Source of the DNA: Candidatus Eisenbacteria bacterium
Lineage (GTDB): Bacteria; Eisenbacteria; RBG-16-71-46; JAFGJU01
Direction: 5' to 3'
DNA: 64,000 nt
Assembly (NCBI GenBank): GCA_026388185.1
Contig: JAPLKG010000008.1
Coordinates: 470,863-534,862, forward strand
Shown: positions 35,481 through 46,633 of the stretch, piece by piece
How positions within the stretch are numbered: the stretch's first letter is position 1
Layout: the number at the start of each line of letters is the position of its first letter
Notes under the pieces: model-generated
Told to the model about the DNA's origin: nothing
Databases searched by the model: none
The model's input: only the letters and a program-made list of their open reading frames with translations
Program-made: the position numbers and the translations under genes

Positions 35481-36343
35481 GGCCCGCCGCGAGACGTGAC
35501 GTGGTGGGCTATTTGCGGGGTGGGTATGGGATGAGCGAGCGGCGAGCGTGTAACTTGATGGAAGTGCATCGGTCGACGTGTCGTTATCGAGTGAGAGCGG
35601 ATCGTAACCGGGAACTTCGGGAGGTACTGAGAAGGTTGGCTGAAGAGCGTTTGCGCTGGGGGCAGGATCGGTTACACGTGCTGCTGCGTCGGCTGGGGTA
35701 TGTGGTGAACCACAAGAGGACGGAGCGGTTATATCGTGAGCTCGGGTTGTCGTTGCGGCTTCGCAGGCGGCCCAAGCGAGTCAGCAGGGTGAGAGTGGTC
35801 TCGGCCTTGCCGGCGCGGCCGAACGAGCGGTGGAGCATGGATGTCATTCATGATCAGTTTGTGGCGGGACGTCGGTTCAAATGTTTGACGTTGGTGGATG
35901 ACTGCACACGTGAGTCGCCGGCCATCTCGGTAAGCTTATCGATCACTGGAGAAGGGGTTGCGGAGGCACTGGATCGGGTCGGGACTGAACGGCCGTTGCC
36001 TGGAGAGATCGTATGTGACAACGCGCCTGAGTTCAATAGTGCTGCTCTTGATCGCTGGGCCTATGAGCACGGCGTCAAGCTCAGTTTTATCGAACCGGGC
36101 AAGCCTGTTCAGAATGCTTTCATTGAATCGTTCAACGGGAAGTTCCGGGACGAGTGTTTGAGTCAGCAGTTGTTCTTTGACCTGACTGATGCGAGGGAGA
36201 AGATCGAAGCGTGGAGGAGAGACTATAACGAGGTCCGACCGCATCAGTCGTTGAAGAACCAAACGCCGAGAGAGTTTGCGAAGAAGTACGACGAGCAGCT
36301 GTCTAAAGAGGGAGAAACCGTGAGGTCACCCCTGGATCAGTAA
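35474..36343 (+). CDS. IS407-type transposase OrfB (DDE integrase core)
   Basis: 289 aa. An HTH_21-like region (LRWGQDRLHVLLRRLG) is followed by the rve integrase core with DDE residues in WSMDVIHDQF, CDNAPEF and ESFNGKFRDECL. It is complete; its TAA stop lies in the right inverted repeat. It is produced mainly as the OrfAB fusion through the slippery A7. Confidence 0.93.
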   Translation: MVRPAARRDVVGYLRGGYGMSERRACNLMEVHRSTCRYRVRADRNRELREVLRRLAEERLRWGQDRLHVLLRRLGYVVNHKRTERLYRELGLSLRLRRRPKRVSRVRVVSALPARPNERWSMDVIHDQFVAGRRFKCLTLVDDCTRESPAISVSLSITGEGVAEALDRVGTERPLPGEIVCDNAPEFNSAALDRWAYEHGVKLSFIEPGKPVQNAFIESFNGKFRDECLSQQLFFDLTDAREKIEAWRRDYNEVRPHQSLKNQTPREFAKKYDEQLSKEGETVRSPLDQ

Positions 36344-38390
36344 GAGGGGGGAGGTCAATCCTCCTGTCATTCTTGTCGGCGCGCAGGAAGGGTAGCCTGA
36401 TGTGGAGGCGCTCTGCGATGAGTGATAGTTCGATGTCCATGATCTTCCGCGCGTCATTTCCTGCTGAGTCTGGGCGCTTTTTGAGGTGGGCGCGGGCATC
36501 ACCGAAGGTCGTAGTCTTGTGCGACCAGCGGATACCGATATCCGGGGTCTCGTAAGGCAAGAGCGCTCTAAAGGTCCAGTTCTTACTGTCAAGCTGCTGG
36601 CGGAGTTCAGCGTACCACTCCCGGTCATGGGTTAGAAGTAGCACCTGCCTCCCGCTGAATTCCTTGTCCAGTACCTCCGCGATCATGCCTCGGTGGTTCC
36701 GGTCGAGGCTGACGACCACGTCGTCGAGTATGAGTGGCCGATCCTTGTCCGCTTCTCGCTTGGCCATGGCCAGGAAAATGCAGAGACCAAGACTGTTACG
36801 GTAGCCTTCGGAGAGCGTCAGTCTTGGGGAATTCTGCTTGACGCCGTAGAACTTAAGCCCTATGTCGATCGCTTTTTCAGCGTCTTTCGGGACGTAGAGA
36901 CAGACGGCCTCAATTGACTCTCCCGGGTGCAGGATTGCCCACAACGCCTGTATGTCTGTCGAGATTTCGTCGATCACGGTCTGCGAGCGCAACCTGATTT
37001 CGTCCCGGACACCCTGTTCAAGGGAGCTGAGGAACGACGTGAGGGCATGGGCGCGCGCCGCAGAAAGAGCCAGTTCTTTGGCCTCAATCACGGCCTCAGC
37101 AACCTCGGCTATCCGCTTGTCCGCCGATAGCTGCTCGACATCAGGAGGGGCGTGCTTTGAGGCGACATCGGCAGCGGTGGTCAGTGGAAGGAGCTTCTTC
37201 TCGATTGTTCTTAGCTTCTCTTCCCCACATGACGTGCGAAGTGCCTCGCCGTTGATCTGATCGAGGTATGCTGAGTTCTTAGCCAGGGGGCCTTTGGAAA
37301 GTTCATCCCGCCACGACTTGACATCGGCCTTGGCAAGGAGGGTCTTGAGGGACTTAACGCTGTCGCACAGAGCTGCGATAGCCCCCTTGCGGGTGTTGAA
37401 TGTGTCAATGACATCTTGGAGCCGTCTCCGCTCGGCCTCAATATGCGCCCTAAAGTCGTCGACTGGAATGGACTGCCCGCAGGCTGGGCACTCCACCTCT
37501 TCCTCGTCTCCTAGTTTCTCGACGAATTCGTCTGTCGATTGCAGCACCTCTAACTTCTCGGCGATCAACGGCTCGACCGCCTCGGCGAGTTTGGCATTGG
37601 CCGCGCGTACAGCGCCGACATGGCCTTTCAGGCCAACGTCGGCTGCATCCCGAAGAGCAAAATATCGCTTCTGCTCTTTAGAGAACCGTTTGACCAGTGT
37701 GTCGATAGCTGTCTCCAATTGCTTGCAGTAGGACATGTGGTCTCGTGTGGCAGCCTTGTCCGGGCAATACCTCGAGTGGAGTTCTTCAATCTTTTTGAGT
37801 ATCTGCTCGTCGCCGTCGGCGCCGAAAGTGAGCCTCCGCTTTCTTTCCACTTCCTGGAGAACGCCCTTGATTTCCTTGAGCTTCGCCTGCTGCTCGACGG
37901 ATTTAACGAGTTGCCGCAAGTTCTCTGCTGCCACCTCCATTTTGTGCAGCCCCAGAAGAGGAAGTAGAGCGGAGTACTTTCCTCCCTTTGTATCGTGAAC
38001 GAATGCCGCGACCTCGTCTTGGCGCAGGACGAGGCGCTGGTAGTCCCAGGTACCCATCGCGATTGTCTCAGCTCCTGAACAGATGGAGGACCCATCTGGC
38101 TTGATCTCGATTCGTAGTGTCACGTCATCCTTGAATATGATTCTTAGCTCAGTCTTTCTATTCTTGGGCTTGTGGGTGTTGGGGATTGCCCTCTCCTGGT
38201 GCTTGCCGCTGTACTCGTGGGCGAGATGTCCGATTCTGCCGCTGTTGAGCACATACTCAATGGCATCCACAAAGCATGATTTTCCTGAACCATTCTCCCC
38301 ATAAACGACTATGGATTTGCAGTTCGTTTCCAGCAAGACAGGATCGGCTGCGCCGCGAAACCACGCCAGTTGGATGCTCTTTATCCTCAT
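36303..38390 (-). CDS. Rad50/SMC-like ATPase, 3' end cut off by IS insertion
   Basis: 677 native codons (38390 down to 36360) plus 18 codons read out of the IS end. Walker A GENGSGKS lies at 31-38 and a Q-loop LVLRQDEVAAF near 120. A central coiled coil carries a Rad50-like CPAC zinc hook (Cys301, Cys304). An ABC signature-like LSEGYRNSLGL is followed by Walker B RPLILDDVVVSLDRN near 545-560. The missing end, with a second zinc ribbon, is at 34807-35138. It overlaps the upstream 70-aa gene by ATGA, so the two form one cassette. The role is unknown; such ATPases occur in anti-phage and DNA-end-processing systems (inference). The truncated product keeps both ATP motifs. Confidence 0.8.
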   Translation of the reverse strand: MRIKSIQLAWFRGAADPVLLETNCKSIVVYGENGSGKSCFVDAIEYVLNSGRIGHLAHEYSGKHQERAIPNTHKPKNRKTELRIIFKDDVTLRIEIKPDGSSICSGAETIAMGTWDYQRLVLRQDEVAAFVHDTKGGKYSALLPLLGLHKMEVAAENLRQLVKSVEQQAKLKEIKGVLQEVERKRRLTFGADGDEQILKKIEELHSRYCPDKAATRDHMSYCKQLETAIDTLVKRFSKEQKRYFALRDAADVGLKGHVGAVRAANAKLAEAVEPLIAEKLEVLQSTDEFVEKLGDEEEVECPACGQSIPVDDFRAHIEAERRRLQDVIDTFNTRKGAIAALCDSVKSLKTLLAKADVKSWRDELSKGPLAKNSAYLDQINGEALRTSCGEEKLRTIEKKLLPLTTAADVASKHAPPDVEQLSADKRIAEVAEAVIEAKELALSAARAHALTSFLSSLEQGVRDEIRLRSQTVIDEISTDIQALWAILHPGESIEAVCLYVPKDAEKAIDIGLKFYGVKQNSPRLTLSEGYRNSLGLCIFLAMAKREADKDRPLILDDVVVSLDRNHRGMIAEVLDKEFSGRQVLLLTHDREWYAELRQQLDSKNWTFRALLPYETPDIGIRWSHKTTTFGDARAHLKKRPDSAGNDARKIMDIELSLIAERLHIRLPFLRADKNDRRIDLPPLTDPGVTSRFLPL
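36332..36357 (-). repeat. Right terminal inverted repeat of the IS
   Basis: Reverse complement begins TGACCTCCCCCC and ends CTGATCCAG, pairing with 35139-35165. It is followed by the ATCC target duplication at 36358-36361. Confidence 0.85.
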
Positions 38391-38670: not shown

Positions 38671-38718
38671 GGCTCAACGACGCGAAATCCCACCGCGGAT
38701 TTTGCGTACAGTGGAGCC
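38671..38718 (-). repeat. attC-like site after the cyclase-like gene
   Basis: Minus strand: GGCTCCACTGTACGCAAAATCC pairs with the reverse complement of its 3' arm, GGCTCAACGACGCGAAATCC. R'' is GCTCCAC and R' is GTTGAGC, which fits GTTRRRY. It is short (48 bases), and it overlaps the last codons of the cyclase-like gene. Confidence 0.5.
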
Positions 38719-39465
38719 GCTTGTTCGCCGTTCCTGTTTCTTGATTACTTTCACCGCGTCATCAAAGAATGCGATGGTGTTGTAATACTTGCACTCTGTC
38801 TCTCGGGGGACTTGGTGCATTGCAAGAAACTCTAGGAGTTTTTCTCTTGGTCTTTCCCCATCGCGGCACGGTGATATTGATGGCACGAAGAATACCTTGG
38901 GCCAATTCACAGCCTTGACGCGAACTATCTTGACGTTCTTAAGGGGGATGTCGTAATCCGGCATGACGTTGCCCTTTGTCGCGGAGTCATGCTCTAACCA
39001 TCGCTGGATCATGATTGTTGCATGTGGTGTCGCATGGACTCCGCCGATCCACTCCGCTTTGTCGTACCAAGCTGCTGCGTCCGTGACGGCTTGTCCCATG
39101 ACGGTGTTTGTTGGATCGTCTACATAGAAGGAGCCGATGGAGATCGAGCCTCTCAGAAGTATCCGGTGCTGCATGGAGTCGACGAGAAACTTCCTGAGGA
39201 TTGCGAAAAAGGAAGTGATGTCATTGAGTTCTGGCGCTCGTGATCCGCACTTGAGTATAACAAGAATCGTATCGTTGAACGTGAATGTCGTGACGCGGTC
39301 GGAAGCGATCCTGCCAAGCACACCTTCGGTTTTCTGGTTGAGGAGTCTGAGGACATAGGATCGTGATTACAAAAAGCGTTCGACCTCGGCATCGTTGTAA
39401 GTGGCCGCGCCGAGCGCATCGAGTATTGCTACGATCCCGTTTTGCTGTTCGATTGGAGTTTTCAT
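38674..39465 (-). pseudogene. Nucleotidyl-cyclase-like gene with in-frame TAA
   Basis: One frame of 263 codons, from ATG 39465 just after an attC core, to TGA at 38674. Codon 33 (39367-39369) is TAA; the frame continues on both sides without a shift. The N-terminal piece GIVAILDALGA holds the first metal-site Asp expected in class III cyclase folds. After the stop come TFNDTILVI, which may carry the second Asp, and RGSISIGSF with GQAVTDAAAWY, typical of cyclase-like domains. Restart at GTG 39321 would give 215 aa without the first Asp. It is therefore probably a recent nonsense allele. Exact enzyme activity is unknown. Confidence 0.65.
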
Positions 39466-39479
39466 CTGTTCATCTTCTC

Positions 39480-39547
39480 GGCGAACATCAACATGAGCCG
39501 TTCTGCGGAGCACAGTGAGCAGAATCGGCTCCATGTGATGGTTCGGT
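39480..39547 (-). repeat. attC site (cassette junction)
   Basis: Minus strand: R'' ACCGAAC, L'' CATGGAGCCG; L' CGGCTCATG, R' GTTCGCC. The L arms pair except for one extra G on the 5' side, the classical attC mark. 68 bases. The next gene starts 15 bases after R'. Confidence 0.8.
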
Positions 39548-40593: not shown

Positions 40594-41292
40594 TCATTTC
40601 TCTTTTGGTTGATCACCCTGTCTTGTCACCACATTGGGTGGAAACTGGGGTTTCTTAGTTGGCTCAGCGGGTTTCGTAGGTTGCTGTGGCACCTTTGGCT
40701 GATCTTCAGACATATTTCCTCCCGGGGGTTTCTCTGTTTGAGTGAAATTGACGGTCTCAATCCGTTGCACATCTCGGGGACGTCGCGCCTCGCTCACAGT
40801 GAATGGGACCGCGCTCAGAGCCATGAATATGACTCCAAGTACTAGACCTATATTTGCCCTGTACAGGAAGGCAGCTCTGGAGATGTTGTTCTCCATGTTG
40901 ACGCTTGCGGCTTCCGCATAACTTCGTTCGAGTTCATCTTCAAACTCTTTCTCAGCTTCTGACTCTGACCTGTTCAAAGCACGGTAATACGCCTTGTTGT
41001 TTGTGGAATACGCTAGCAGGTCGTTACAGGATGGTAGGACCAAATACTTGTAACGGTGCATGACTCGTACAATGTAGTAGAACGCTGCGATTAGGGCAAG
41101 AAAAGCTGCGAGCACACAGACAAGAAAGATGTAGGTCAAGTAGCCTGAAGAGTAGGCGAACAGTTTCACAAACGAAAAAGCTACCCCAGTGAGGCCAGTT
41201 AGCACCGCTATGGGTAGCGTAACTGCACCTTCGATCTGTTGTCTGCGGTTGAGCTCAAAGTAATATTGCTCTTTCATCAAATCAACGCTCAT
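40594..41292 (-). CDS. Three-helix membrane protein, SLATT-like layout
   Basis: 232 aa from ATG 41292 (ATG 41277 is an alternative; the GTG at 41316 falls in the attC). Two adjacent N-terminal helices (about 22-42 and 48-72), a charged helical middle (SESEAEKEFEDELERSYAEA), a third helix near 165-182 and a proline/lysine-rich tail. Paired N-terminal helices plus a coiled coil resemble small membrane effectors such as SLATT proteins, but I cannot assign a family. Confidence 0.65.
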   Translation of the reverse strand: MSVDLMKEQYYFELNRRQQIEGAVTLPIAVLTGLTGVAFSFVKLFAYSSGYLTYIFLVCVLAAFLALIAAFYYIVRVMHRYKYLVLPSCNDLLAYSTNNKAYYRALNRSESEAEKEFEDELERSYAEAASVNMENNISRAAFLYRANIGLVLGVIFMALSAVPFTVSEARRPRDVQRIETVNFTQTEKPPGGNMSEDQPKVPQQPTKPAEPTKKPQFPPNVVTRQGDQPKEK

Positions 41293-41314
41293 GGGATTTC
41301 GACCGCTTAGAATC

Positions 41315-41375
41315 ACCGAACGCCAGCAATAACCTGGCGCCGCGCAGCGACGCTCAGGTTATTGTCTTGTCCGCC
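41315..41375 (-). repeat. attC site overlapping the stop of the preceding gene
   Basis: Minus strand: R'' GGCGGAC (degenerate), L'' AATAACCTGAGCG; L' CGCCAGGTTATT, R' GTTCGGT. The arms contain perfect CAATAACCTG/CAGGTTATTG repeats with one extra A on the 5' side. The TAA of the 41359 gene lies inside the 5' arm. Confidence 0.7.
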
Positions 41376-42219
41376 CTTTTTCTCTCGATGAATCAAGAGA
41401 CTCGATCATCTTCGTGATCAACCTTGCCGTACAGGCGAGTTGTGCGCATGCCACTTTGGCCGAGAAATCTTGCCAGGTCGCAAGATTTCTGAAAACCCCA
41501 CCCTGATTCAGCGGAGAGTCTTGAACAAGAGAATAGAAAGTCTTAAGAATTCCCGCGTGTTCGCCGTTGATCACAGGGACTACCACGGGCTGTTTCCTCA
41601 GCGCATCAGCCATTCGTGTCGCATACACGTACTGGCGGATGAGTTGGTATGTGTCTTCCCAGTCTTTGAGGCTCTCCAGTTCTACGAACCCTGACACCTT
41701 CGCGTAGGATCTCATTCGGCGCATAGCACCGCTTTCCTTGCCGTTAGATCTATTTGTTTGTGCCTTCCAAGGTGATTGGCCGCCGTTGAGGTTTAGTTTG
41801 CACTCGACGAAAGCGACCTCGCCCTCGGTCACAAGCACAAGATCGGGCTCAGTCATAGTGCCCCTGAGTTGCCCGTCAACGGTTCTGATGAGGATGCTTA
41901 GGAGTTGCTGGATCTCACTATGCTTCTCAACATCACATCCCCAGAACAGGACGGATTCGACAGCTGAAAGACCGAGCACCTCAGATACCACTTGAAGGCC
42001 CCTTGGGCCTTCAATCTGGAGGCTGCGGAAGACGTTCCATGTCATGGCGTCTTCACTGTTGGCCACACCGAGGTAAGCCTTGCCTCCATCCTTTCCCGGC
42101 TTCCAGAGGCTCTCGCCTGCGAAGTGGTCACGCCATGCCTTCTGGATAAGTACGGGATTGTGCGGGTCGGCGATGAGATTTGTTCGAAAGTCATACTGCG
42201 CGAGGTGTTCCGGTATCAT
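41359..42219 (-). CDS. Possible PD-(D/E)XK nuclease-fold protein
   Basis: 286 aa from ATG 42219 (AGAGAAGAC upstream). An upstream GTG at 42255 lies in the attC. The stretch EPDLVLVTEGEVAFVECKLN has the D-x(n)-ExK spacing of PD-(D/E)XK nucleases. The rest is soluble, mixed alpha/beta. A nuclease role is inferred from this motif alone. Confidence 0.65.
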   Translation of the reverse strand: MIPEHLAQYDFRTNLIADPHNPVLIQKAWRDHFAGESLWKPGKDGGKAYLGVANSEDAMTWNVFRSLQIEGPRGLQVVSEVLGLSAVESVLFWGCDVEKHSEIQQLLSILIRTVDGQLRGTMTEPDLVLVTEGEVAFVECKLNLNGGQSPWKAQTNRSNGKESGAMRRMRSYAKVSGFVELESLKDWEDTYQLIRQYVYATRMADALRKQPVVVPVINGEHAGILKTFYSLVQDSPLNQGGVFRNLATWQDFSAKVACAQLACTARLITKMIESLDSSREKGRTRQ

Positions 42220-42236
42220 TTCTTTGTCTTCTCTCT

Positions 42237-42300
42237 GGTGAACGGTGGGGCTCACCCTCGGGATGCACAGCGGACTGGCGGGTGGAGCGGCTGGTTATGG
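42237..42300 (-). repeat. attC site (cassette junction)
   Basis: Minus strand: R'' CCATAAC, L'' GCTCCACCC; L' GGGTGAGC, R' GTTCACC. One extra C on the 5' side. The R boxes are degenerate relative to RYYYAAC/GTTRRRY. 64 bases. Confidence 0.6.
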
Positions 42301-42327: not shown

Positions 42328-43518
42328 TCACCTCCGCCACCGAAAAGCGGCGAGCCTACGTACTTGTTTCGCACCATCCGGGCCAGTGATTGAAAGCGCC
42401 TGTCTCTGGGCATCGAGGAGCCACCTGGACATGGATGGGCGTATGACCTGTTTCCGGCTGGGGCGAGCAGCGACTCCCTGAATGAGAAACGAAAGAAGCG
42501 GTGCGGCCTGGCGGTCCAGGGCGAGACGAGATATCAGAGAAGTCAGCCACTGATAATCAAGCAAGAGCGGTTCGCGAAACTTAAACAAGAGACTATCCGC
42601 TACGATCCGCGTGAGATCATCCGTGGCTATGGAAGTCAGGGCCCTAGGATTCTGTGTCGTCCTGCGGAAGAAGGCTCGCTTGTGCGTCCTAGCATAGTCC
42701 CCTAGGGCGCGACCCCGACTTAAAGGGACGAGCAGGCGACCGACTGCCCGCATTGACTCGGGGCGTCGATCTCTCTCCAGCTGTGTCATCCGACCGATGA
42801 CATAATCCCACGGCTTGAGGTGACGCCGGGAGCCCCGCGAGCCGCCGGAGGATGAGGGCATGGATGTGCCGACGGGGGAACCAACCAACATGTGCCTGAC
42901 CGTCCTGCCCAAGGCAAAGATGTCACCCCTAGCATCGACAGATTGCGGATCCTGGGCTTGCTCGGGCGGGAGGTAGTATAGCGTGCCCAGCATGGAGTCC
43001 TCACCGCAAGTGAAAGTATGCCAATCCGCGATTCGGCACATCCCAAAGTCTGCGAGCTTGGGATGGCCATTGGTGGCAAAGAGGATGTTGGCAGGCTTGA
43101 TATCGCGGTGCACTATGCCTGTGTTGTGGGCATATTGCAGGGCCGAACATATGGGCCACAGTATATCCAGTACGGCTTGCTGTCTCATGGGCCCATTCTC
43201 AATCATCTTCTCGAGGGATCCGCCCCCGCAGAACTCCATGACATAATACGGATTGTCTGCGTTGACGTTGCAGTCGTATATGGGCACGATGCTCGGGTGG
43301 TTCAGCCTGATCATCGCCTGAACTTCGCGAATGAAGCGTTGCTTGTGTCGGTCCAACGACGCCTTGGCTGCAGGAGCTTCCTCGCGAAGTGGCCTGAGAG
43401 ACTTCAGTACGAGTCTCTGGCCAGACAGCCGATCGAGAACGAGGAACGTGACCGCTACCGAGCCCGATTCAACTTGCCGTATCACCTGATAGTGCTCGTC
43501 AATGAGTCTCTCTGCCAT
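42328..43518 (-). CDS. Ser/Thr protein kinase with unknown C-terminal domain
   Basis: 396 aa. The Hanks-type kinase domain (about 10-270) has ATP-binding Lys39 (VLK), HRDIKPAN with catalytic Asp139, and DFG with Asp157; an activation segment leads to YYLPPEQ. The glycine loop is weak (VESGSVAVTF). Residues 290-396 form a helical region I do not recognise, with no membrane helix, unlike housekeeping PknB-type kinases. ATG 43518 follows about 70 bases after the cassette start. Kinases in accessory islands can take part in phage defence (for example Stk2), but this is only a guess here. Confidence 0.88.
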   Translation of the reverse strand: MAERLIDEHYQVIRQVESGSVAVTFLVLDRLSGQRLVLKSLRPLREEAPAAKASLDRHKQRFIREVQAMIRLNHPSIVPIYDCNVNADNPYYVMEFCGGGSLEKMIENGPMRQQAVLDILWPICSALQYAHNTGIVHRDIKPANILFATNGHPKLADFGMCRIADWHTFTCGEDSMLGTLYYLPPEQAQDPQSVDARGDIFALGRTVRHMLVGSPVGTSMPSSSGGSRGSRRHLKPWDYVIGRMTQLERDRRPESMRAVGRLLVPLSRGRALGDYARTHKRAFFRRTTQNPRALTSIATDDLTRIVADSLLFKFREPLLLDYQWLTSLISRLALDRQAAPLLSFLIQGVAARPSRKQVIRPSMSRWLLDAQRQALSITGPDGAKQVRRLAAFRWRR

Positions 43519-43593: not shown

Positions 43594-43652
43594 CTGTAAC
43601 GTCGCAAATCAGCGGCGCGGTTTACCGCGTACGCTGGATCTGTCTGGCTCGG
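43594..43652 (-). repeat. attC-like site overlapping the end of the Macro-TIR gene
   Basis: Minus strand: R'' CCGAGCC, L'' AGATCCAGCG; L' CGCTGATTT, R' GTTACAG. The L arms pair with one extra C on the 5' side, and the central hairpin GCGGTAAACCGC supplies the variable stem. The TGA stop is part of L'. The R boxes are poor, so confidence is moderate. Confidence 0.5.
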
Positions 43653-44643
43653 CCGTTCCGTTCTTGTGGATCTTCTGCTTCACATACGTAGGTACCTCTC
43701 CTAGCTCCGGTTCCGTGTCGCAATCGAAAATGCACAGCACAAGTTCTTTGAGCCTTTCAGGATCTATGTCTGACTCTTTGCCCCAGTCAAAGGCGTACTT
43801 TGACTTCATATAAATTGGAAGGGCTTCATCGGCAGCATCTTCACGGATGATGGCAATGTACTTCCGTTTGTTATCGCCTTGAGCAAGCATGTCGCCTTGA
43901 ATGACCATTGTCTCCCAGCCCACCCCCCCTTTTCGGAAATCCGCCTTCTCCATGTAGTACTTGTCGCAGACAAGTAGCACCTTCTCCGCCATGATGACCT
44001 CATTTGCCATCCATTGTGGAAGGTCAAATCCGGGTTTCAAGTGAAATGCATCAAGACGTGCGTCCACCCCGTGTTCGCGTAACGCTGTGGCCAGCAACTT
44101 GACCCAAGATGCGTTGTTCTTGTTGGTTCCAGTGTAACTAATGAATACCCTTGGGTGAGGAATTGGCTTCTCTTCCGACGCGACCTTACGGGCGGCAGAG
44201 AGGTTCCGATATGCCTCACGCGTGAAGCAGAACACGTTGAAGATGATGTCCTTTTCTGCGGCAAGAATGGACCGGAGGGCCTCAAAGGAATCCACAGGTG
44301 TCATTCCTCCGGCACCCGATCCAAGGAGAGGGATATTGACTATTCTAATCTGATTCGCGGTCGCATAGCGGACAATTTCCCCTGCGATTTGGCTGATTGC
44401 CTCCGCTTCAGACGTGATCGTGTTCGCGTTGACCGATGCAGCGTATCCAATCGTACTGGCGAACTCATACCTTGACTCTCGGAAGTGAACCTTTCCATAT
44501 GGAATGTGGCCGACCATCGTGGGCAGACCGCGTTCGTGAAGGTTCGTGTATACCGAGTGAGTCACCCCCCCACCGCTGTCACACGGAACGATCAGGAGGT
44601 CGCATTTTGAGTCAAAGATGCTGCCATGAATGAGATGTATCAT
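43609..44643 (-). CDS. Macro domain-TIR domain fusion protein
   Basis: 344 aa. Residues 1-155 form a Macro domain (NAD-metabolite/ADP-ribose binding): LIVPCDSGGGVTHSV and the phosphate loop IPLLGSGAGGMTP. Residues 163-330 form a TIR/SEFIR-like domain: RVFISYTGTNKNNASWVKLL, LDAFHLKPGFDLPQWM and the GGVGWE block, with Glu244 about 81 residues into the domain, where NADase TIRs carry the catalytic Glu. Bacterial TIRs make NAD-derived signals, and in type II Thoeris the Macro and TIR domains are on separate proteins. ATG 44643 lies directly after the attC core. The 3' end carries a charged tail encoded within the attC. Confidence 0.88.
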   Translation of the reverse strand: MIHLIHGSIFDSKCDLLIVPCDSGGGVTHSVYTNLHERGLPTMVGHIPYGKVHFRESRYEFASTIGYAASVNANTITSEAEAISQIAGEIVRYATANQIRIVNIPLLGSGAGGMTPVDSFEALRSILAAEKDIIFNVFCFTREAYRNLSAARKVASEEKPIPHPRVFISYTGTNKNNASWVKLLATALREHGVDARLDAFHLKPGFDLPQWMANEVIMAEKVLLVCDKYYMEKADFRKGGVGWETMVIQGDMLAQGDNKRKYIAIIREDAADEALPIYMKSKYAFDWGKESDIDPERLKELVLCIFDCDTEPELGEVPTYVKQKIHKNGTAEPDRSSVRGKPRR

Positions 44644-44739: not shown

Positions 44740-45768
44740 TTAGTCTTCACTCCCAATGTCCATATGTAGCAACAGCACGGCAATATCGCCCTCGAAACTC
44801 ATCTCGACACTTCGTTCATCAACCGGGAAGTCAATCGCCCGTCCTAGGTTAGCGGTGCGAATCAAGCGAGTGGCGAAGGAGTCGACCTCTGGATTTGCGG
44901 TCGCCCCACGCCAACAAGTGAATTCCCCTATGTTGATCTGAGTCCACCCTCGGATGAAATCGTAGAGGTCGCGAGCGAAGTGGAGGTTGCCCAAGAAGGG
45001 GATGCCAAGCCCGACGCCTGGCCATGGAACGGGTCCGATTCTACGCATAACATCGCGAAGGATGAAGTAATACTCATCTGGGTCAAGACCCGGAAATGGA
45101 ACAGGTCCACTCGCGAAGCTTGACTGCAGTCCACCCTGCTGAAGAACACTTGGGAAACTCACGTCTGCCGGCTCCAGCGTCGAGCTCTGTGCCAAGAACT
45201 CTGCAAGGAGTGGTGCTGATGCGAAGATCATCTCGCCTGGTTCAGAGAGGAGCCCGAATGCTCCAAGACAACCAGTGGAATTCCGGAACACGACATCATC
45301 CATGCCGCGGAATATACCGCGATTGCCGGTGAAAGGCGGGAAGTTCTTGAGCAGGAACAATTGCTCTGCGTCTATGCCCCAATTCTGGTTCTTCGCCTTT
45401 TTGTTTTGGATAATACACACACGCTCAACAAGCCGGCGCTTTCCCGCCGTCACAATGGAGATCGCAACCATATCTCCTAGTTCTCTAGTAGTGGGCTTGT
45501 CGCGAAAGTTGAACTCGACGTACGAGCGCGGGCCATGGATCTTGTTTGCCGCTATGTGGATCAGTCTGCCATACGACTTCTCGTTAATCGCGGTGACGAG
45601 TCTCGTGATGATCGAAACTTCATTCTCAGCGGATGCATATGCTTGGCTGAGGGCATCGTAGGCGGCACGGACAACCCCGTTCTGGAAGTTGACAAAGTCG
45701 GTGTCATGGGCCAACTGTGCGGCAATTTCAAAGAACCTACGCATACTCGGTTTCCCTATTCTTCTCAT
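44740..45768 (-). CDS. Unknown cassette protein, possible PD-(D/E)XK fold
   Basis: 342 aa, soluble. ATG 45768 lies eight bases beyond the attC. TTRELGDMVAISIV followed by RVCIIQNKKAK has the GD...QxKK pattern seen in some PD-(D/E)XK-like nucleases; the remainder (NRGIFRGMDDVVFRNS, PDEYYFILRDVM) is unfamiliar. The next attC follows just after the stop at 44740. Function not assigned. Confidence 0.6.
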   Translation of the reverse strand: MRRIGKPSMRRFFEIAAQLAHDTDFVNFQNGVVRAAYDALSQAYASAENEVSIITRLVTAINEKSYGRLIHIAANKIHGPRSYVEFNFRDKPTTRELGDMVAISIVTAGKRRLVERVCIIQNKKAKNQNWGIDAEQLFLLKNFPPFTGNRGIFRGMDDVVFRNSTGCLGAFGLLSEPGEMIFASAPLLAEFLAQSSTLEPADVSFPSVLQQGGLQSSFASGPVPFPGLDPDEYYFILRDVMRRIGPVPWPGVGLGIPFLGNLHFARDLYDFIRGWTQINIGEFTCWRGATANPEVDSFATRLIRTANLGRAIDFPVDERSVEMSFEGDIAVLLLHMDIGSED

Positions 45769-45871: not shown

Positions 45872-46303
45872 TCATACGTTACCTATGAGGGCCAAGGATA
45901 AGAACCAGAACACCATGAACATGATGTAGAGGCCCTTGGTCGCACGAAACATGAGGTTCGATCTAGGTCTCTCCTCCATGGTGTTGTACTGGAGGAGCCT
46001 CTCCAGCTCCCGGGCCTTCTCCTGATAGTAACGAATGAGCTGTTCGAGGCGCCGCTCGTAGCCGAAGAAGACGAAGGTAACGCCCAGCCCGATCACTCTG
46101 AATGCGATGAGCACGGAGTGCGTGACACCCTTCTCCGGCGAAATAAGTCCGAAGGCCGCTGAAACCGCGGCCGCTGAGACGGCAAAGTAAACAGAGACCA
46201 TGACAAAGCGAAGAGAACTGTAGTGGCGAAGATAGAGATTCGCTTCCGTGTACTCTTGATCCCGATGAGGTTGGATGGGTGTGTTCTGGAGAGTGCCCGA
46301 CAT
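45872..46303 (-). CDS. Small membrane protein, first cassette
   Basis: 143 aa from ATG 46303, which has a strong GGGAGAA site; an in-frame ATG at 46342 lies outside the cassette core. Two central helices (VMVSVYFAVSAAAVSAAFGL and VLIAFRVIGLGVTFVFFG), a charged coiled coil (RRLEQLIRYYQEKARELERL) and a C-terminal helix (LYIMFMVFWFLSLALIG). I recognise no family. Its stop is eight bases from the attC. Confidence 0.65.
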   Translation of the reverse strand: MSGTLQNTPIQPHRDQEYTEANLYLRHYSSLRFVMVSVYFAVSAAAVSAAFGLISPEKGVTHSVLIAFRVIGLGVTFVFFGYERRLEQLIRYYQEKARELERLLQYNTMEERPRSNLMFRATKGLYIMFMVFWFLSLALIGNV

Positions 46304-46325
46304 GGTTTCTCCCGAGTCTGATGAA

Positions 46326-46332
46326 GCCCAAC
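46326..46332 (-). repeat. Lone integron core site GTTGGGC
   Basis: GTTGGGC on the minus strand fits GTTRRRY exactly and sits 22 bases before the first cassette gene, where a cassette boundary is expected. I found no matching R'' or L arms within 150 bases upstream. It could be an attI-like core or the remnant of a lost attC. Confidence 0.45.
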
Positions 46333-46633
46333 TACTGGTCATGCCGTTTCGAGATAAGTACCTTTAGAACGTCTTCTCTTCCGGATAACACTCACGGTTT
46401 AGTGGTCTCTATCTATCTCGGCCTTATGCACCTATGCTCAATTGTGAGAACTGCCTCGGTCTTATGCGGGTTCCGTCCATAACCGGGTGTTTTGTCGTAG
46501 AATTCAATCCGTGACGGTCCTGCCCGTTGCCTTTTCATTCTCGGTACACTCGCCGGTGAAGACGTGTATTTTGCCTGAGCGCGCAACTGTTGGTTCTGCC
46601 GCTGCCGATGGAGCAGTCGCGTTCAACCTTTGA

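Follow-up and report, generated by a model that had tools for sequence, protein, structure and literature searches.

What is a macro domain doing in the same polypeptide as a TIR-superfamily domain? The question is raised by a gene at positions 43609..44643 (-) of the 64,000-nucleotide stretch of Candidatus Eisenbacteria DNA analysed here (the window), which was originally predicted to join a macro domain to a TIR domain, perhaps as a rearranged form of type II Thoeris. Macro domains usually read or erase ADP-ribose, and the catalytic residue of TIR-type NADases is a glutamate. The proposed order of domains holds up: the frame is intact, encoding 344 amino acids from an ATG start with no internal stop, and both profiles and the predicted fold place a macro domain N-terminal to a TIR-superfamily domain. 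The macro domain occupies residues 1-152 (44188..44643 (-)) and includes the loops GSIFDxKCD, PC(N/D/S)xxGGV and NIPLLGxGAGG. It is followed by a linker of low predicted confidence (residues 153-163; 44155..44187 (-)), by a SEFIR domain (residues 164-326; 43666..44154 (-)) recognized through family models, the solved structure 5Y8E and the predicted fold, and by a variable C-terminal tail without conservation among relatives (residues 327-344; 43612..43665 (-)). The codon for the candidate catalytic Glu244, in the motif GVGWET, lies at 43912..43914 (-). In the two-domain AlphaFold2 model the N-terminal domain has a pLDDT of ~90; pTM is 0.58, and the arrangement of the domains is not fixed by the model.

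Is the N-terminal half truly a macro domain? Pfam Macro is matched by 12 of the 12 aligned family members (best 1.5e-4), with the window protein (E 0.07, 13.5 bits versus a cut-off of 22) and the other full-length members scanned falling below the Pfam cut-off. A profile built from the family finds solved macro domains, namely PARP9 (1.4e-4), TTHA0132 (2.2e-4) and TARG1 (about 0.01), and the N-terminal AlphaFold2 model superimposes on TTHA0132 over 150 residues (Z 20.2, rmsd 2.2). Judged by profile and predicted fold, then, residues 1-152 are clearly a macro domain, and a divergent one. Many of its invariant residues fall in two segments that form ligand-binding loops, P20, C21 and G25 in one and N103, P105, L107, G108, G110 and G112 in the other. 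The pocket also has peculiarities. An invariant Ser8 replaces the Asp that contacts adenine in ThsA (D83) and other macro domains, and position 22, the Asn of the distal ribose site, varies among N, D and S in the family; because of these two changes, ADP-ribose in its usual pose may not be the ligand.

Does such a domain bind its ligand, or cleave it? DarG is among the nearest macro folds (Z 18.3), but the fusion comes without a DarT toxin, in all members aligned with a DarG-like protein the catalytic lysine of the DarG/TARG1 type is an Ala or Ser, and the Asn of the MacroD type is not conserved across the family. The absence of that lysine and the variability of that Asn lead us to favour a putative binding role over hydrolysis. 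These residues also bear on the idea that the chain carries its own brake in the macro domain, which would bind or clear the SEFIR product, or remove ADP-ribose from the protein, and so hold the NADase off until a phage interferes, a toxin-antitoxin logic within a single chain. Macro domains do pair with NAD-using toxins elsewhere, in DarTG and in sirtuin-macro systems (PMC9503650), and two relatives are weakly DarG-like in sequence (2.4e-6 and 1.1e-5). Against this, the stretch around the DarG/TARG1 lysine is GYAAS, GYSAS or a close variant in the family, and the MacroD-type Asn is again not kept. We consider the brake unlikely, and clearing of the product by the macro domain, which the original prediction had entertained, is weakened by the missing lysine.

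The C-terminal half had been taken for a TIR domain, and here the identification has to be changed. Residues 150-324 match the PADLOC bSEFIR model at 1.5e-49, and the domain scores above the cut-off with both Pfam SEFIR (39 bits versus 23) and Pfam TIR_2 (47.8 bits). The closest solved structure is a prokaryotic SEFIR domain, 5Y8E/5Y8F (phmmer 2e-24; family profile 8e-54). By these sequence matches the domain belongs, within the TIR superfamily, with the SEFIR domains and not with the ThsB-type TIRs. Modelled alone it reaches a mean pLDDT of 92, and the model superimposes on 5Y8E (Z 16.6), on the SPARTA TIRs (Z 14-16, up to 15.9) and on the SARM1 TIR (Z 14.2). The model also matches the SEFIR domain of animal Act1 (9OT1) at Z 16.3, about as good as the bacterial and NADase matches.

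Animal SEFIR domains, such as those of Act1 and IL-17R, are scaffolds. Might the SEFIR domain of the fusion also be a mere scaffold that recruits other SEFIR or TIR proteins, leaving the macro domain as the functional sensor or eraser? The match to the Act1 domain is what such a reading would lead one to expect, and possible partners are at hand, as TIR_2 also scores above its cut-off seven times elsewhere in the 2.6-Mb host genome, on contigs C8, C14, C19 and C20. Nevertheless, Glu244 is kept in 128 of the 128 diverse bacterial SEFIR domains aligned, the fusion gene travels alone, and SEFIR is listed among phage defences that deplete NAD+, cleaving it on activation (PMC12774641; PMC11559045). 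We regard the scaffold reading as quite improbable. The possibility had been raised beforehand that the C-terminal domain would prove to be a SEFIR or scaffold TIR lacking NADase geometry. SEFIR it is, but the lack of NADase geometry is not borne out, given the invariant Glu and the predicted likeness to the SPARTA and SARM1 TIRs.

Relatives were sought with a SEFIR alignment, which was run against 84,980 genomes, and in smaller scans. Of the best 80 loci, twelve align with the window protein over residues 1 to ~327 (44-85% identity), and the locus ranked after them reaches 40% identity, in the SEFIR part only. Two of the twelve (L052 and L053) carry the same fusion gene, and with two loci added (L134 and L139) there are 13 distinct full-length relatives. 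They come from Pseudomonadota, Verrucomicrobiota and Bacillota, with hosts that include Gallionellaceae, Zoogloea, another proteobacterial MAG, Verrucomicrobia, Lachnospiraceae and Oscillospiraceae. The gene is nonetheless rare, judging from the samples taken: it was present in 2 of 397 genomes of one family (the centre genome counted), in 3 of 399 genomes of one order (counting the centre genome and a decayed copy), in the centre genome only among 391 of a class, and in 1 of 47 genomes of the window's phylum, which is the window's own, with no second copy. The decayed copy, L140 (1486-2229), has lost the last part of the macro domain and the first part of the SEFIR domain through a natural in-frame internal deletion, so that the middle of the one now runs into the middle of the other; it is probably a relic. 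An HNH-like frame lies near it on the opposite strand.

Have the two halves shared a history? In a tree, a single branch (100% SH-aLRT) separates the SEFIR domains of the fusion from 76 other SEFIR domains. The fusion domains are marked by W211, E215 and W243, positions at which the others carry F/Y, mostly M/S, and mostly T/Y, respectively. Among 12 aligned members, the window protein included, macro and SEFIR distances correlate at r 0.81, a value reached in 0 of 5000 permutations, and we therefore conclude that the two halves have been passed on jointly. Evolution has been faster in the macro half, with a mean identity of 42% versus 57% for the SEFIR half. Because of this correlation and the 13 full-length relatives, the presence of macro and SEFIR domains in one chain is no chance join.

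Across the loci compared, no neighbouring gene recurs, save for the shared flank of the near-duplicates L052 and L053, and the fusion gene therefore appears to act alone. The small membrane proteins near the window gene, once thought to be linked to it, likewise recur at no other locus. The GC content of the window gene is 52.1%, versus 58.5% and 58.3% for its flanks, and in 10 of 12 relatives, too, the gene has less GC than either flank (only marginally in L056), the exceptions being L059 and L134. In Candidatus Ferrigenium straubiae (L050, 4599-8269) the fusion gene sits in a transposon-like cassette, between two inverted, 100% identical 1242-bp copies of an IS110-type element. AbiH is found near the fusion gene in L134, and an FRG-domain gene in L056. 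An empty site was sought in two genomes of the same family, where the flanking marker was absent. The family is a stand-alone one, and has been transferred horizontally.

We also looked for the gene among mobile elements. IMG/VR scans with the fusion and with the macro domain alone found no relatives, and an IMG/VR scan with a SEFIR alignment yielded SEFIR proteins, none of whose examined frames included a macro domain. In tblastn searches of plasmids and phages only the SEFIR part was matched; used by itself as the query, the macro domain gave no relative on plasmids. One longer match, from residue 113 onward, to an E. coli plasmid is not the fusion, as its N-terminal domain differs. Under macro-TIR names or as a macro-SEFIR fusion, no description was found in the open literature, in agreement with the prediction that the fusion was new, though most subscription papers were not covered and priority is unproven; on macro domain plus SEFIR, the open literature yielded a general review only. 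Macro-SEFIR is thus apparently an undescribed family of rare, recurrent and mobile single genes, of which both halves are known.

How does the fusion compare with known systems? The combination of a macro domain with a TIR-superfamily enzyme recalls type II (TM-macro) Thoeris, and the ThsA_Macro model gives faint matches (best 0.028) to six of 12 family macro domains. One could therefore picture ThsA and ThsB rearranged into one chain. In Thoeris, however, the two are separate proteins, ThsA is transmembrane and its macro domain is of another family, and ThsB has its own type of TIR, not a SEFIR. ThsA_Macro (PF20016) is not matched by the window protein, the weak family matches are far below its cut-off, and a search of the genome accepting E values up to 0.1 finds no ThsA_Macro. 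Nor were thsA and thsB found side by side, the window neighbours being of other families, and in the loci compared the fusion has no conserved partner. ThsA macro structures are absent among the 50 structural matches listed, an absence that is no evidence against likeness. All told, a rearranged Thoeris is very improbable.

Another likeness is to bSEFIR (PADLOC PDLC03957), also a single gene, with a homologous SEFIR domain and the invariant Glu. The SEFIR relatives found here mostly have an N-terminal SEFIR domain and a long C-terminal region, whereas the fusion has its SEFIR domain at the C-terminus behind the macro domain, in a clade apart; only positions 26-201 of the 412-position PADLOC model are matched. 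Present defence finders such as PADLOC would label the fusion a plain bSEFIR, and so miss the putative sensor. Four SEFIR proteins, L008, L009, L102 and L137 (the last from an E. coli plasmid), resemble the fusion in having the SEFIR domain behind an N-terminal module of ~145 residues, but that module is not a macro domain. Since related SEFIR proteins have a non-macro module at the same position, the input module is probably exchangeable, with the macro domain as one version among several.

What then might the fusion do? CARF, SAVED and STING domains gate TIR domains, and the CARF-TIR (Cat1), SAVED-TIR and STING-TIR proteins resemble the fusion in having a ligand-binding sensor joined to a TIR-superfamily NADase; they differ in sensing cyclic nucleotides, in lacking a macro domain, and in that their TIRs are not SEFIR domains. 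ThsA macro domains oligomerise upon binding ADPR or IAD, and TIR-type NADases need self-association (PMC11204291). By analogy, the fusion would be a single-chain, NAD+-depleting immune effector in which the macro domain is the ligand-binding gate of SEFIR assembly, our preferred reading, to which we give an even chance. The macro domain would bind an ADP-ribose-type or other nucleotide ligand that is formed or altered during infection, possibly the SEFIR domain's own product, and ligand binding would control assembly of the SEFIR domains; these, once oligomerised, would hydrolyse NAD+, and the loss of NAD+ would halt phage production. Starting from a macro domain and a SEFIR domain with its Glu, we infer every later step, including the NADase, the ligand and the antiphage activity. 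It is possible, and we offer this more tentatively, that what the macro domain recognizes is a novel signal, NAD-derived or otherwise and perhaps the SEFIR product itself, so that ligand-driven assembly and NAD+ destruction would form a positive feedback needing no separate signal-making enzyme. In any event, a macro domain has been fused to a domain that likely consumes NAD+, and the two have travelled together from phylum to phylum. Should the macro domain act as the gate of the enzyme, the fusion would be a compact model for the control of NADases by NAD-derived ligands, and its altered pocket may be a hint of a so far unrecognized ligand.

Several other features of these loci deserve mention. 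The gene downstream of the fusion is 99.8% identical in L052 and L053 while the upstream sequence is different; the two MAGs, both from rabbit samples, are assigned to two families, a situation that reflects either transfer or misbinning. The window gene itself lies in a lower-GC cassette of ~10 kb, bounded on one side by an IS3-type transposase adjoining uvrA and on the other by a YkuD-type gene and glycine-cleavage genes. It shares this cassette with a protein kinase, an SMC-like ATPase, membrane proteins and a REase-ARP-type nuclease, which have the look of defence-island cargo independent of the fusion. The ATPase (36303-38390 (-)) is SMC/RecF-like, with LmuB its best PADLOC match (3e-24). 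Two frames at 38674-39534 (-), 39534-39367 and 39321-38674, resemble by eye a Pycsar-type nucleotide cyclase that a frameshift has cut in two; the larger piece gave nothing significant in family scans. Near them a protein with two transmembrane segments (40594-41316 (-)) matches PycTM weakly (1e-3), and is a possible Pycsar effector. On the other side of the fusion gene, 44740-45768 (-) encodes a 342-residue protein of no known family, in which an IQNKK stretch might belong to a PD-(D/E)XK nuclease, and which may pair with the adjacent small membrane protein, weakly like 8xMP (45872-46342 (-)). The Ser/Thr kinase (42328-43518 (-)) is PD-T4-6-like and is followed by the REase-ARP-type nuclease (41359-42255 (-)), possibly as a two-gene unit. 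Outside the window, three of the seven TIR_2 matches of the host genome lie within 10 kb of one another on contig C8 (344-354 kb).
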